Shown piece by piece: positions 38,786 to 46,075 of a DNA stretch of 64,000 bases. Made by a program: the position numbers and the translations under genes. Within the stretch, counting starts at the first letter, position 1. Every line of letters starts with the position of its first letter. Below the pieces are notes generated by a model. It made no database searches. It was not told where the DNA came from and saw nothing but the letters and a program-made list of their open reading frames with translations. This DNA is from Prauserella salsuginis. Its GTDB lineage: Bacteria; Actinomycetota; Actinomycetes; Mycobacteriales; Pseudonocardiaceae. Location of the stretch: contig NZ_JANBBF010000008.1 in assembly GCF_024648885.1 (NCBI RefSeq), forward strand, positions 930,001 to 994,000, read 5' to 3'.

Positions 38786-40015
38786 TCACGCCAGCGCGAT
38801 CGCCGCGATTCCCGCCAGCACCACCAACGAGCCCGCCACTCTCCTGCGGCCGTGGGGTTCGCCCAGGATCAGCCACCCCGCCAACCCGGCCAGCACGATG
38901 CTCACCTCGCGCAACGGCGCCACCAAACTCACCGGGGCCAGCCGCATCGCGAACAGCACGAGCAGGTACGCGACCGGCGAGAGCAGCCCCACGAGAACCA
39001 CGGACCGGCGATGCTCCCGCCACAGCCTGCCGGTCGGCCCTTCGAACGCGACCCCGGCATCACGGTCCTCGGCATCACGGTCCTCGGCATCACGGTCCTC
39101 GGCATCACGGTCCTCGGCATCACGGTCCTCGGCGCCTCGAGGCGCGGCGCCATCGAGGCCACTGCCGTCGAACCGTGCGTCGTCGAACCGTGCGTCGTCG
39201 GGGCCACTGCCGTCGGGGCCACTGCCGTCGGCACCGGCGCCCGCGGCACCTCGCGGCGTGGCGCCACCGTGCGGGGCCTCGCCGTGCGGGGCCTCGCTGC
39301 GCGGGGCCTCGCTGCGCGGGGCCTCGCTGCGCGGGGCCTCGCTGCGCGGGGTTTCACTGCGCGGGACACCGTCGGTCCGGTCGTCAGCGGGTACCAGTAC
39401 GCGCCCTCGGGCCCCACTCAGTGCATGGGGCGCCAGCAGCAGGCTCTGCAGCGCCGTTCCGGCAGCGAGGTAGACGACCGGCGGGACCCCGAGTTCGTCG
39501 ACGGAGTAGGCGTCCCACAGTGTGTACGCCGCGATGGTCACCCCGGTGAGCACGCCGTAGCCGGCCCCTGCCCGCCCGCGGCCACGAGTGGGCGTCGTGC
39601 TGGGCGCACTGATCACCAACACCCCGCCGACGACGAGGACGGCGCCGACGAGGCCCGGCCAGCCGGGGCGCTCGTGCAGCACGAGCACGGCCACCACCAC
39701 GGCCAGCAGTGGACCGCACCCTCGCGCCAGCGGGTAGACCACGGACAGGTCGCCGACGGCATAGCCGCGCTGCAGCACCACGCCGTAGGCCACGTGCGCC
39801 ACGGCCGTGACCGCGGCGGCCAGGAGCCACGTCCAGCGGGGCTGCTCACCGCTCACCAGGACGTGCGCGATCCCGAACGGCAGCAGCACCGCCGCCGAGA
39901 CCGTGTAGTAGCAGAAGACGAAGCGGGCCCCGCCGGGAACGCGGGTGGCCACGAGGTTCCACGCGGCGTGGAACGCGGCGGCGAGCAGAACGAGAACCAG
40001 TGCGGTAAGGGACAC
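38786..40015 (-). CDS. EamA/DMT-family transporter with repeat-built central loop
   Basis: The 409-residue protein has ten hydrophobic segments typical of drug/metabolite transporters, with HERPGWPGLVGAVLVVGGV in the first EamA half and APLREVSIVLAGLAGWLILGE in the second. Between them, residues about 215-325 form a hydrophilic loop of about 110 residues. It consists of repeats PRSEA (five or more), DGSGP, DARFD and AEDRD (five), each encoded by 15-base units. The core should export a metabolite; the loop has no known role. GGAAGG precedes GTG 40015. Confidence 0.85.
   Translation of the reverse strand: MSLTALVLVLLAAAFHAAWNLVATRVPGGARFVFCYYTVSAAVLLPFGIAHVLVSGEQPRWTWLLAAAVTAVAHVAYGVVLQRGYAVGDLSVVYPLARGCGPLLAVVVAVLVLHERPGWPGLVGAVLVVGGVLVISAPSTTPTRGRGRAGAGYGVLTGVTIAAYTLWDAYSVDELGVPPVVYLAAGTALQSLLLAPHALSGARGRVLVPADDRTDGVPRSETPRSEAPRSEAPRSEAPRSEAPHGEAPHGGATPRGAAGAGADGSGPDGSGPDDARFDDARFDGSGLDGAAPRGAEDRDAEDRDAEDRDAEDRDAEDRDAGVAFEGPTGRLWREHRRSVVLVGLLSPVAYLLVLFAMRLAPVSLVAPLREVSIVLAGLAGWLILGEPHGRRRVAGSLVVLAGIAAIALA
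39055..39134. repeat. 15-nt tandem repeat, five copies (AEDRD on the minus strand)
   Basis: CGGCATCACGGTCCT is repeated five times with almost no change, inside the transporter gene. Confidence 0.92.
39165..39235. repeat. Two short 15-nt repeat pairs (DARFD and DGSGP)
   Basis: Two copies of a GTGCGTCGTCGAACC-like unit are followed by two to three copies of GCCACTGCCGTCGGG, in frame. Confidence 0.8.
39269..39366. repeat. 15-nt tandem repeat, about six copies (PRSEA)
   Basis: GCTGCGCGGGGCCTC recurs five to six times with variants at both ends, in frame on the minus strand. Confidence 0.9.
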
Positions 40016-42034: not shown

Positions 42035-42149
42035 ACCCTGATCCTGCCACGGTGACATGGAGCGCAACGGCATGGCCGGGACTGATCGCTATGCCCTAAT
42101 GTGGTGCCCACACACGCCGCGCAGGCATACGGCGGACAATCGAATACCG

Positions 42150-42278
42150 CTCATCAAGAGGGGCAGAGGGAACGGCCCGCAGAAGCCCCGGCAACCGGCG
42201 TCAGCCTGTCATCTCGATTCCGCGAGGTAGCTGACGACAACGGTGCTAATTCCGACCCGTGCCAGCGGGGCAGATGAG
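42150..42278 (+). ncRNA. SAM-I (S-box) riboswitch upstream of thrC
   Basis: The 129 bases match the S-box consensus. P1 is CTCATC (42150-42155) with GATGAG (42273-42278). The core holds AGAGGGGCAGAGGGAACGGC, GAAGCCCCGGCAACC, a P3 hairpin, and GGTGCTAATTCC, with the SAM contact and kink-turn elements in order. The 3' strand of P1 runs into the thrC ribosome site (AGGAAAGGA), and no terminator hairpin follows. SAM binding should therefore close P1 and block translation. Confidence 0.95.
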
Positions 42279-42293
42279 GAAAGGAACCTCGCG

Positions 42294-43556
42294 ATGACTG
42301 CAGCCCTGACCCCCTCCACCACCAAGGCCGTCGACCTCGGTCCGGCCGTCGAACTGGTGTCGAAGGAAGAGGGGCACCGCCAGCCGCTCGCCCCGGAGTT
42401 CGTCTCCGCGGAGGACTTCTCGCCGCTCGAGGTCGGGTACGACTTCGGCAGGGTCCGCCGGGAGGACATCGAGTCCGGGCCGCGCAACATCTGGCGCTAC
42501 AAGAAGCTGCTGCCCGTCCCGTCCAACGTCGAAGAGATCCCGAACACCGAACCGGGCTGTACCCGGCTGGTGCGGGCCGACAACCTGGCGAAGGCGCTCG
42601 GTGTGAAGCGCCTCTGGGTGAAGGACGACACCGGCAACCCGACGCACTCGTTCAAGGACCGCGTGGTCGCCGTGGCGCTCGCGGCGGCACGTGAGTTCGG
42701 CTTCGACACGCTCGCCTGCCCTTCGACGGGCAACCTGGCCAATGCCGTGGCTGCCGCAGCCGCCCGCGCCGGCTGGCAGTCGGTGGTGCTCGTGCCGTCC
42801 TCGCTCGAGCGCGCGAAGATCCTCACGACCGCGGTGTACGACGGCGCACTGCTCGCCGTCGACGGCAACTACGACGACGTCAACCGCTTGGCCACCGAGT
42901 TGGCCGCCGAGCACGAGTCGTGGGCGTTCGTGAACGTCAACGTGCGGCCGTACTACTCCGAGGGGTCGAAGACGCTCGGCTTCGAGGTCGCCGAGCAGCT
43001 CGGCTGGCGCCTGCCCGAACAGATCGTGGTGCCGATCGCCTCCGGTTCGCAGCTGACCAAGGTCGACAAGGGTTTCAAGGAGCTGGCGCAGCTCGGCCTC
43101 GTCGAGGACTCGCCATACACCATTTTCGGTGCCCAGGCCAGCGGCTGCTCGCCCGTCTCAACGGCTTTCCGCAACGGTCACGACGTCGTCCAGCCTGTCA
43201 AGCCCGACACGATCGCGCGGTCGCTGGCGATCGGTAACCCGGCCGACGGGCCCTACGTGCTCGACACGGTGAACCGCACCGGCGGCGCGGTCGAGGACGT
43301 CACCGACGACGAGGTGGTCGAAGGCATCCGGCTGCTGGCCCGCACGGAAGGCATCTTCACCGAGACCGCGGGCGGCGTGACCGTCGCGACGGCGAAGAAG
43401 CTCATCGAGGCAGGCAAGATCGACCCGGACGCCGAGACCGTACTGCTGATCACCGGCGACGGCCTCAAGACCCTCGATGCGGTCGAGGACAAGATCGGCC
43501 CGAAGGCGACGGTCGCACCGTCGGCGGCCGCGGTGAACGAGGTCCTCGGCGGCTGA
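42294..43556 (+). CDS. thrC: Threonine synthase (PLP-dependent) under SAM riboswitch
   Basis: The 420-residue fold-type-II PLP enzyme has the lysine Schiff-base motif NPTHSFKDR (Lys121), the phosphate-binding CPSTGNLANAVAAAA and the C-terminal LLITGDGLKT. Threonine synthases convert O-phosphohomoserine to threonine. The protein is longer than the usual 350-360 residue actinobacterial ThrC, with about 60 extra N-terminal residues. It is not next to hom or thrB. Start ATG 42294 follows AGGAAAGGA. Its control by SAM raises a methionine-branch role. Confidence 0.88.
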   Translation: MTAALTPSTTKAVDLGPAVELVSKEEGHRQPLAPEFVSAEDFSPLEVGYDFGRVRREDIESGPRNIWRYKKLLPVPSNVEEIPNTEPGCTRLVRADNLAKALGVKRLWVKDDTGNPTHSFKDRVVAVALAAAREFGFDTLACPSTGNLANAVAAAAARAGWQSVVLVPSSLERAKILTTAVYDGALLAVDGNYDDVNRLATELAAEHESWAFVNVNVRPYYSEGSKTLGFEVAEQLGWRLPEQIVVPIASGSQLTKVDKGFKELAQLGLVEDSPYTIFGAQASGCSPVSTAFRNGHDVVQPVKPDTIARSLAIGNPADGPYVLDTVNRTGGAVEDVTDDEVVEGIRLLARTEGIFTETAGGVTVATAKKLIEAGKIDPDAETVLLITGDGLKTLDAVEDKIGPKATVAPSAAAVNEVLGG

Positions 43557-43592
43557 CGACCGGACGGCCGGGTCTCGGCTGCTTCCGACTCC

Positions 43593-43642
43593 CTCGTTCG
43601 ACGCGGGCCGTTCCGTCACGGTCCCGGTCCGCGTCGAACGAG
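43593..43642. terminator. Terminator between thrC and comEC
   Basis: CTCGTTCGACGCGG (43593-43606) pairs perfectly over 14 bases with CCGCGTCGAACGAG (43629-43642). The right arm is inside the 3' end of comEC, so the hairpin serves both convergent genes. Confidence 0.75.
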
Positions 43643-46075
43643 CGCGGGTTCGTCCCCGTCGCCAGGGACGACCGCGAGGTCTCCGCCCCGGTCGGTCCGC
43701 GCGACGAGCGCGCCCACTGCCTCCAAGGCATCCGTGGTGGTGTCGCTGGGGTGCCCGTAGTCGTTGTCTGCACCGACGCTGACCAGCGCGATGCGCGGTC
43801 GCACCGCGGCCAGGAACTCGGGCCTGGTGTAGCGGCTGCCGTGGTGTGGCACCTTGAGCACCTCGGCCCCCAGGTCGACGTCGCGAGCGAGCAGGTCGCT
43901 CTGGGCGGTCAGTTCGATGTCCCCGCTGAGCAGTACGCGTCCCGCGGGCGTCGACGCGCGCAACACGGCCGACGTGTCGTTGACGACGGTGCCGTCCTCA
44001 CTCTCGCCTGCGCGTGCGCGTTGCGGCGTGTAGTGCGGACCGAGGACCTCGAGGGTGAGTGCGTCCCAGCGCAGCGTCCTGCCGACCGTCAGGTCGACCA
44101 GCGGCACCGCGCGGCGACGGGCCGTGGTCGACACTTCGCGCCACGCCCACGCCGGACTGCGTCCGCGGCCGACGGCGATCGCACCGACACTGCGGCCGTC
44201 GAGCACGGCATGCAGGCCGCCGACGTGGTCGGCGTGGAGGTGGCTCAACGCGACCAGTGGCACCCGCCGGACGTCCAACCGGTCGAGACAGCGGTCGATC
44301 TCCCTGGCATCGGGACCGACGTCGACGACCACGGCCCGGCCGGGCGTACCGGTGGCCAACACGATCCCGTCACCCTGGCCGACATCGCACGCCACGACCG
44401 TCCAGCCGGCGGGCGGCCATCCGGCCTGCAGGAACCGTGGTGGCACGGTCACCACGAGCGCTGCCGTCACACCGATCGCCACGGCCATGCGCGCCTTTCG
44501 GTACCGCAGCGCGGCGACGGCACCGACGGCGATGCCCGCGGCGGCGACCCCGCCCCACCACCCCGACGGCCAGGACACGACCGCCCCGGGCACTGCGGCC
44601 GCCTCCCGGGCGACGATCACGAGCCAGCTCACCCCCGGCCCGGCGAGGTGCACCAGGACCTCGGCCGCCGCCGGTGCAGGCACGGCGAGCGCGGCCGCCG
44701 CCACGCCGAGCACCGTGACCGGCGCGACCACCGGCGCTGCGAGCAGATTCGCGGCGACGGAGACCATGCTGATCTCGCCCGCCATGCCGGCGATGACCGG
44801 TGCGGTGGCGACGAAGGCGGCCACGGGCACGGCGAGCGCCTCCGCCATGCCGGGCGGGACGCGCCGCGCAGCGAGCGCGGCGGCCCACCGGGGTGCCAGG
44901 AAGATCAGACCCCCGGTCGCGACGACCGACAGCGCGAAGCCCATGCTCGTGGCCATCGCCGGGTCGACGAGTATCAGTCCGCAGACGGCCGCCGCCAGCG
45001 CCGGCACCACGGAGCGCCGGCGTCCGAGCACGAGGGCGGCGAGTCCCAGGGCTCCCATGACCGCGGCGCGCAGCACGCTCGGTTCGTAGCCGACGAGCAC
45101 GACGAACCCCGCCAGCGCGATCCCGGCCGCACCTGCCGAGACGCGTGGACCGAGCCGCACGGCACGCGCGAGCAGGAGCACCGCACCGCACACGATGGCG
45201 ACGTTCGAACCGCTGACCGCCGTGAGGTGGGACAGCCCGGCGTCGAGGAACTCCTTCTCCACACGCGCCGACTGATCACCGGTGTCGCCGACGACGAGCC
45301 CGGGCAGCAGGCCCGCTTCGTCCTCGCCGAGCACTCCCGAGGCATCCCGCAGTGCGCTGCGCACGACGTCGGCCGCGCGCTGCCAGACCGGGGCCGCGTC
45401 GACCCGCTCCGGTGGTCCGCGCACGTAGCCGACCGCCACGGTCAGATCCCCGCGGCGGGCCGGTGCCAACGAGACCGTCACGCTGACCCGCTGCCCCGGC
45501 AGGAGCCGGGCCCACTCGCCTACCGGCCCGATGAGCAGGACACGTCCCGTCGACGAGAGGCCGTCGCCGCCGGACCCGGCCCCGCCCGTGCCGACACGGG
45601 CGGCCTCGTCTCGATCATGGACGCTCACGACGTCCACGGGCACCAGCACCGACCGGGCCCCGCCGCGCTGAGCGCCGTACCCGTCGTCCCGCAGCGGGCG
45701 TGGTCGCTCCCGCACCTCGGTGCGCATCCGGACTTCGCCGCCGTCGGCGGCCACCGCCCGGAGCGGGTCCGCATCCGCCTCGTGCACCCGAAGGCCGACG
45801 GGCACCAGCACCAGCAGTCCGCAACAGCCCACGGCCATCGCCGCCGCGGCCACCCTGGGCGCGCCACGGCGCCGCGCGCGCACCGCGACGAGACCTCCGG
45901 CGACGACGGCGACGCCACCGACCGCGACCGCCGACTGCCAGCCCCACTGCAGGCCCGCGAGAGCGCCGCCCCACACGGCGAGCGCCGCCGGCACCAGCCG
46001 CATGTCCCGACGTGGCCGCGCCGCGGGATCCGCGGTGACCTCGGACGCGGCACCGATACCGGCGGTGAGCGTCAT
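43616..46075 (-). CDS. comEC: ComEC/Rec2-family DNA uptake channel
   Basis: The 819-residue polytopic protein has an N-terminal OB-like region, a competence domain with about ten membrane segments (GLSHLTAVSGSNVAIVCGAVLL) and a C-terminal metallo-beta-lactamase domain with HLHADHVGG. It is the inner-membrane channel of natural transformation. ATG 46075 overlaps the comEA stop. No other competence pilus genes are in the window. Confidence 0.93.
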   Translation of the reverse strand: MTLTAGIGAASEVTADPAARPRRDMRLVPAALAVWGGALAGLQWGWQSAVAVGGVAVVAGGLVAVRARRRGAPRVAAAAMAVGCCGLLVLVPVGLRVHEADADPLRAVAADGGEVRMRTEVRERPRPLRDDGYGAQRGGARSVLVPVDVVSVHDRDEAARVGTGGAGSGGDGLSSTGRVLLIGPVGEWARLLPGQRVSVTVSLAPARRGDLTVAVGYVRGPPERVDAAPVWQRAADVVRSALRDASGVLGEDEAGLLPGLVVGDTGDQSARVEKEFLDAGLSHLTAVSGSNVAIVCGAVLLLARAVRLGPRVSAGAAGIALAGFVVLVGYEPSVLRAAVMGALGLAALVLGRRRSVVPALAAAVCGLILVDPAMATSMGFALSVVATGGLIFLAPRWAAALAARRVPPGMAEALAVPVAAFVATAPVIAGMAGEISMVSVAANLLAAPVVAPVTVLGVAAAALAVPAPAAAEVLVHLAGPGVSWLVIVAREAAAVPGAVVSWPSGWWGGVAAAGIAVGAVAALRYRKARMAVAIGVTAALVVTVPPRFLQAGWPPAGWTVVACDVGQGDGIVLATGTPGRAVVVDVGPDAREIDRCLDRLDVRRVPLVALSHLHADHVGGLHAVLDGRSVGAIAVGRGRSPAWAWREVSTTARRRAVPLVDLTVGRTLRWDALTLEVLGPHYTPQRARAGESEDGTVVNDTSAVLRASTPAGRVLLSGDIELTAQSDLLARDVDLGAEVLKVPHHGSRYTRPEFLAAVRPRIALVSVGADNDYGHPSDTTTDALEAVGALVARTDRGGDLAVVPGDGDEPALVRRGPGP

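Follow-up and report, generated by a model that had tools for sequence, protein, structure and literature searches.

Why should an S-adenosylmethionine (SAM) riboswitch stand directly before a gene that protein models call threonine synthase? The question is raised by a stretch of 64,000 nucleotides from Prauserella salsuginis (contig NZ_JANBBF010000008.1, positions 930,001 to 994,000; the whole stretch is referred to below as the window). A first-pass annotation, made from the letters of the window, had described a SAM-I (S-box) element ahead of a thrC-like gene and offered two explanations: that SAM sets the division of homoserine between threonine and methionine, or that the thrC homologue uses O-phosphohomoserine for a reaction of the methionine branch. 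The second is very probably right. We predict, from comparison of sequences and gene content, that the gene very probably encodes a homocysteine synthase of the MetM group and that the SAM-I riboswitch would act as its end-product sensor. This reading is favoured because the genome carries a second ThrC and gave no MetX or MetA, because gene and riboswitch are linked throughout the class, and because a MetM has been published. The features on which the argument draws are as follows.

42148-42280, + strand: SAM-I (S-box) aptamer; RF00162, 71.7 bits, E 8.7e-15, gathering score 44.4, model positions 1-108
42150-42155, + strand: P1 5' strand CTCATC, from the Rfam alignment
42190-42247, + strand: P3 with its extended apical hairpin, ends approximate, from the Rfam alignment and a single-strand fold of P3
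42221-42228, + strand: P3 apical 3' strand CGCGAGGT, perfectly complementary to 42286-42293; hypothetical, candidate second clamp
42273-42278, + strand: P1 3' strand GATGAG, from the Rfam alignment
42279-42285, + strand: Shine-Dalgarno-like GAAAGGA, immediately 3' of P1 and 8 nucleotides before the ATG, from the sequence
42286-42293, + strand: pre-start segment ACCTCGCG, between Shine-Dalgarno and ATG, complementary to P3 at 42221-42228
42294-43556, + strand: metM-like gene, "threonine synthase" by models; predicted O-phosphohomoserine-dependent homocysteine synthase of the pyridoxal phosphate-dependent family PF00291; profile matches, with function from comparison and literature

Gene content and the identity of the window gene

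A MetM governed by a SAM riboswitch is, as a kind, known since 2024. The homocysteine synthase was found in Streptomyces (Hasebe 2024), and in Streptomyces albulus the metM gene lies under an upstream SAM riboswitch and its product prevents methionine auxotrophy, according to the available part of a later paper (PMC12172450).

The window gene encodes 420 amino acids and scores 283.3 bits against the NCBIfam threonine synthase model TIGR00260, for which the cut-off is 167.1. The name given to it in the first-pass annotation therefore holds for the sequence family; it is not supported for the function, since a separate ThrC accompanies hom and thrB here and ThrC is found in all 135 sampled genomes that carry the gene. 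The other thrC of P. salsuginis, whose product is 35% identical to the window protein, sits between hom and thrB on contig C2 (the names hom and thrB are our own reading of the frames). The window gene is accordingly remote from that cluster, as had been noted, and a second, canonical threonine synthase gene beside hom and thrB, for which a search had been proposed, is present, so that the window gene is not the only one of its kind in the genome. MetX was not found in the genome, the best score being 23.1 bits against a model cut-off of 500 bits, which none of 14 control genomes passes either although Corynebacterium glutamicum still gives a match; MetA was not found, with a best score of 13.1 bits against a cut-off of 27. 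Two full-length MetH-like methionine synthases (L235, G000:C3:414719-418288, and L236, G000:C5:1608-5135) score above their cut-off.

These components suggest a pathway. ThrB, the homoserine kinase, would make O-phosphohomoserine on the way to threonine, and MetM would draw on the same intermediate, exchanging the phosphate for sulfur to give homocysteine, which MetH would methylate to methionine. Sulfur would come from a CysO thiocarboxylate or from free sulfide. When SAM is plentiful it would bind the aptamer and P1 would close against the Shine-Dalgarno sequence, so that less metM would be translated; when SAM is scarce P1 would open and metM would be translated.

The linkage of gene and riboswitch was followed through a sample of 196 genomes of the class. 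The window protein was matched at E<=1e-60 in 136 of them, and removal of one match (G007, 39% identity, one stop) left 135 accepted MetM-like relatives, whose full-length members share 57% identity or more with the window protein. RF00162 lies upstream on the same strand, above its gathering score, at every one of the 135 loci. The distance from riboswitch to metM ranges from 4 to 894 nucleotides with a median of 35; of the five distances above 150, two result from a truncated protein match. A search for motifs of the aptamer core, cruder than RF00162, recovered 124 of the 135 class loci and all 80 loci of a set of named relatives, which are the best 80 of 538 loci found and for that reason mostly come from one family. 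That S-box elements normally serve other genes, so that this target would be unusual, had been the starting premise of the first-pass annotation; it fails in the class, because the 196 genomes gave 145 RF00162 matches and 135 of these precede the gene; of the remaining ten, three score less than the gathering threshold. Within the class sample MetM is the principal target of SAM-I. A second SAM-I element of P. salsuginis (L087, G000:C7:230683-230770, - strand, 55.3 bits) precedes a gene for an ATP-binding cassette ATPase, for which MetN is the best match in NCBIfam, at a score under the cut-off of that family.

Canonical ThrC is present in 191 of the 196 genomes; it was not found in G091, G102, G121, G148 and G166, none of which belongs to the 135 that carry MetM. 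The distribution of MetM and MetX is 65 genomes with both, 70 with MetM only, 57 with MetX only and four with neither, so that 192 possess one or the other; if five MetX matches that are weak or partial are discounted, the figures become 61, 74, 56 and five, and the total with at least one is 191. In the family f17, all 17 sampled genomes have MetM with no MetO gene beside it, and yet a strong MetX match is found in 14 of them.

The protein itself departs from threonine synthase in a consistent manner. Its alignment to solved threonine synthases starts at residue 63-66, which makes real the N-terminal extension of about 60 residues that had been reported from the sequence; the extension is common to the relatives across the class, whose matches mostly start at residues 1-16. 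Comparison of 211 MetM-like proteins (from 215 loci, two being without a stop in reach and two short or interrupted) identified 128 columns at least 98% conserved, 50 of which differ from the ThrC of P. salsuginis. Among the 50 are motif positions common to four solved threonine synthases, with VNPxRxEGQKT replaced by VRPYYSEGSKT and GNAGN by ASGSQ; these positions presumably line the active site. The window protein does not match the ThrC motifs STGNTxA, VNPxRxEGQKT and VGNAGN of the four solved structures, and the SFKDR lysine motif is kept. The closest named relative among the matches listed is from Prauserella aidingensis (99% identity). The protein is 60-66% identical to 18 proteins of a family (f18) that is probably Streptomyces-like, and a plasmid search gave one named relative, from Nonomuraea gerenzanensis, at 66% identity.

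The sulfur donor and the alternatives

Hasebe et al. (2024) reportedly describe MetM as using O-phosphohomoserine together with MetO, a thiocarboxylated carrier whose gene lies downstream; in S. albulus metO reportedly follows metM directly. A ThiS-family, MetO-type gene lies within 1 kb downstream of metM at 101 of the 135 class loci (two of the 34 loci without one end inside metM). Within the same distance there is none at the window locus and none in the 80 named relatives. Since the adjacent gene is common without being universal, it is perhaps not a defining property of the MetM group. To explain its presence, a quick tree requires five changes, and the starred branches make three of these unavoidable; with 103 rows and a long outgroup branch, gain is not distinguishable from loss on this tree. 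Nine positions co-vary weakly with loss of the adjacent metO, for example I345, which is methionine in five of nine MetO-less family groups.

ThiS-family matches occur at three places in the genome: within an apparent mec-cysO-cysM cluster, beside a thiG-like gene and beside a moaA-like gene, where all these names are our own reading of the sequences. Against the MetO model only CysO reaches E<=1e-10; two matches at that level are seen in most genomes where MetO adjoins metM. Because CysO is the sole match to the MetO model at this threshold in the genome, the MetM here would either use free sulfide or borrow CysO. The CysO of this genome (L126, G000:C4:503748-504002 and just after) ends in GG plus two residues (GGMR) and may for this reason need trimming before thiocarboxylation.

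The window gene fits MetM in all features tested except the neighbouring carrier, and this is one of several observations that count against assigning it as a homocysteine synthase: a carrier gene that adjoins metM at three-quarters of the class loci (101 of 135) is missing from this one. In addition, the genome contains a cystathionine gamma-synthase-type protein over its cut-off, the enzyme for its usual substrate not having been found there, and MetX is also present in 65 of the 135 MetM genomes (61 when weak matches are left out), so that the two routes are not exclusive; four or five of the 196 genomes have neither. The threonine synthase model is passed. Finally, a cyanobacterial homologue, that of Microcystis (thrC), which is adjoined by a metO-like sulfur-carrier gene, displayed threonine synthase and deaminase activity, yielded, from O-phosphohomoserine and sulfide, only an unidentified peak near methionine, and did not in the judgement of the authors act as a full MetM in those cells, as far as the available part of the paper goes (PMC12172450).

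Such observations lend themselves to two other explanations. According to one, the window gene is a second threonine synthase under SAM control, and SAM determines how much homoserine carbon goes to threonine and how much to methionine. The NCBIfam cut-off, the retained SFKDR lysine and the threonine synthase activity of the cyanobacterial homologue, as given in the same part of PMC12172450, speak for it. It is nevertheless highly improbable and we have rejected it: a separate ThrC exists in P. salsuginis and in every one of the 135 genomes of the sample that carry the gene, repression of threonine synthesis by SAM would be an odd logic, the motif positions of the four solved ThrC structures are replaced and fixed in the MetM group, and a MetX match is missing from 70 of the 135, which would leave many of them without a known route to homocysteine. 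The first of the two explanations offered by the first-pass annotation is thus not favoured. Alternatively the enzyme could be bifunctional, a homocysteine synthase when given sulfide or a carrier and otherwise a threonine synthase or threonine deaminase. The two activities of the Microcystis protein point in this direction; a dedicated ThrC in the genome argues the other way, and the Microcystis gene is described, in the part of the paper available, as being without a SAM riboswitch, so that its role may differ (PMC12172450). We consider a bifunctional enzyme distinctly unlikely.

The leader and a candidate second clamp

The assignment of the window gene to MetM leaves the manner of its control to be considered. 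RF00162 is the sole Rfam match at the gathering threshold in the window; the aptamer is full-length, which bears out the complete S-box core described earlier, and was seen again in a whole-genome search. P1 consists of six standard pairs, 42150-42155 with 42273-42278, and abuts the ribosome site as had been claimed: the helix ends at 42278, GAAAGGA runs from 42279 and the ATG of the metM-like gene is at 42294. A layout suited to the proposed occlusion of the ribosome site is supported by this placement of P1 against the Shine-Dalgarno sequence. The arrangement was compared in 208 leaders in which P1 and start were placed by script (the 80 named relatives and 128 of the 135 class loci). The upstream P1 strand reads C[TC]CATC in 207 and the 3' strand GATGAG in 205, while the best Shine-Dalgarno match, scored against the 16S tail, begins within the P1 3' strand in 95 and on either of the next two bases in 87. 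No covariation of P1 was detected in the parsed leaders because the helix is nearly invariant.

A simple consensus scan of 42040-43700 gave no terminator-like site, in line with translational control, and on the strength of that scan transcription attenuation was rejected. Free folding of the leader was discarded as evidence (z -0.66; the minimum-energy fold leaves the P1 5' strand unpaired). Judged from its sequence, the layout of the leader would suit translational occlusion by P1, and the comparison supports this.

We were struck by a further complementarity. The apical strand of P3, CGCGAGGT, could pair along its whole length with ACCTCGCG, the segment that fills the space between Shine-Dalgarno and start codon. 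If it does so when P1 is formed, the pairing would be a pseudoknot, and the P3 apex would act as a second clamp on the ribosome site. For 204 leaders parsed from the 215 loci, in 77 genus groups, the complementarity was compared with that of dinucleotide-shuffled P3. With one leader per genus group, 20 of the 77 are at p<=0.05, against 0 for the control pair of P3 with coding sequence, 5 for the P4 control and 2 for the P2 control. A score of at least 7 is reached in 27 of the 77 groups; P3 borrowed from a different family gives 8.7%. Among all 204 leaders, 84 reach this score, a few of them in a different register, and the coding control does so in 2 of 204. Averaged over 29 family groups, z is 0.78 (p 0.003), with seven groups at a median p<=0.05; the controls give z values of 0.19, 0.25 (two groups) and -0.30, the last formally below zero (p 0.019). 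The partner letters vary from family to family and yet pair: GAGGT with ACCTC, GAGATC with GATCTC, GAGGCC with GGCCTC and GCGGAGAC with GTCTCCGC.

A simpler explanation is that the riboswitch works by P1 alone and that the match between P3 and the pre-start segment is due to chance or to another cause in a GC-rich leader. The excess over the control pairs and the changing yet complementary letters count against it. In its favour, swapping of P3 within families did not significantly lower the fit (12 families, Wilcoxon p 0.42) and gave no covariation signal, for which reason the pairing is put forward here as a hypothesis. Many families are without the complementarity, and of the 20 genera that reach p<=0.05, 12 belong to the family of the window; at least one of the 20, Kibdelosporangium, uses a different helix. 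The conservation of CCTC within ACCTCGCG has another possible cause, because these letters could also pair with GAGG (42276-42279), where P1 ends, and the combination GATGAGG..CCTC is found in 78 of the 80 named leaders and 55 of the 128 class leaders. Control by P1 alone seems somewhat probable to us, and the second clamp a possible but doubtful candidate. The named relatives conserve the sequence CCTCGCG (42287-42293) right before the ATG to a striking degree, even where it has no P3 partner, as in Lentzea.

A more elaborate scheme, rather unlikely as a whole, would join the two themes. In Pseudonocardiaceae CysO might feed both CysM, for cysteine, and a carrier-less MetM, for homocysteine, while SAM would shut metM by means of a two-clamp riboswitch in which P1 and a P3-apex pseudoknot enclose the Shine-Dalgarno sequence.

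The genes flanking metM, both on the opposite strand, are holA-like and comEC-like. Elsewhere in the window, a gene for an EamA-type transporter (38786-40015, - strand) contains in its middle several 15-base tandem arrays (39055-39365) that encode low-complexity repeats.

Significance and comparison with known systems

The standard protein model labels as threonine synthase what is yet probably, in this class, an enzyme of the methionine branch, and 70 of the 135 genomes with the gene lack a MetX match. Read correctly, metM would supply a missing step in the methionine pathway of these actinomycetes. The absence of metO poses the question of whether a MetM can run on free sulfide or shares CysO with cysteine synthesis, and the P3 complementarity is a candidate for an additional contact in SAM-I riboswitches of the translational type. 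Both the metO-less arrangement and the complementarity may be new with respect to the literature searched, which comprised open-licence papers.

The nearest known system is the MetM of S. albulus, likened here by its description in the available part of the literature: it too is a threonine-synthase-like protein under a SAM riboswitch. The window gene and its 80 named relatives differ from it in having no metO-like gene after metM, CysO being the sole such carrier found in the P. salsuginis genome. Canonical ThrC (TIGR00260; PDB entries 1uim, 2d1f, 6cgq and 2zsj) shares with the window protein the family, the SFKDR lysine motif and a hidden Markov model score over the cut-off; the window protein is set apart by its N-terminal extension, its altered motifs, the lack of hom and thrB as neighbours and its coexistence with a true ThrC.

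With regard to the leader, the direct translational SAM-I type with the ribosome-binding site in P1 (Barrick and Breaker, 2007) belongs to the same aptamer family and agrees in having the Shine-Dalgarno sequence in or against the P1 3' strand, with no terminator found. The window leader differs by the P3 apical strand complementary to the segment before the AUG, of which there is no mention in the available part of that paper. Adenosylcobalamin riboswitches, in which a pseudoknot joins a loop to the expression platform, have another aptamer and another ligand; judging from the portion of that literature available, what they would share with the pairing hypothesized at the window is the working idea that a loop of the aptamer pairs outside its core.
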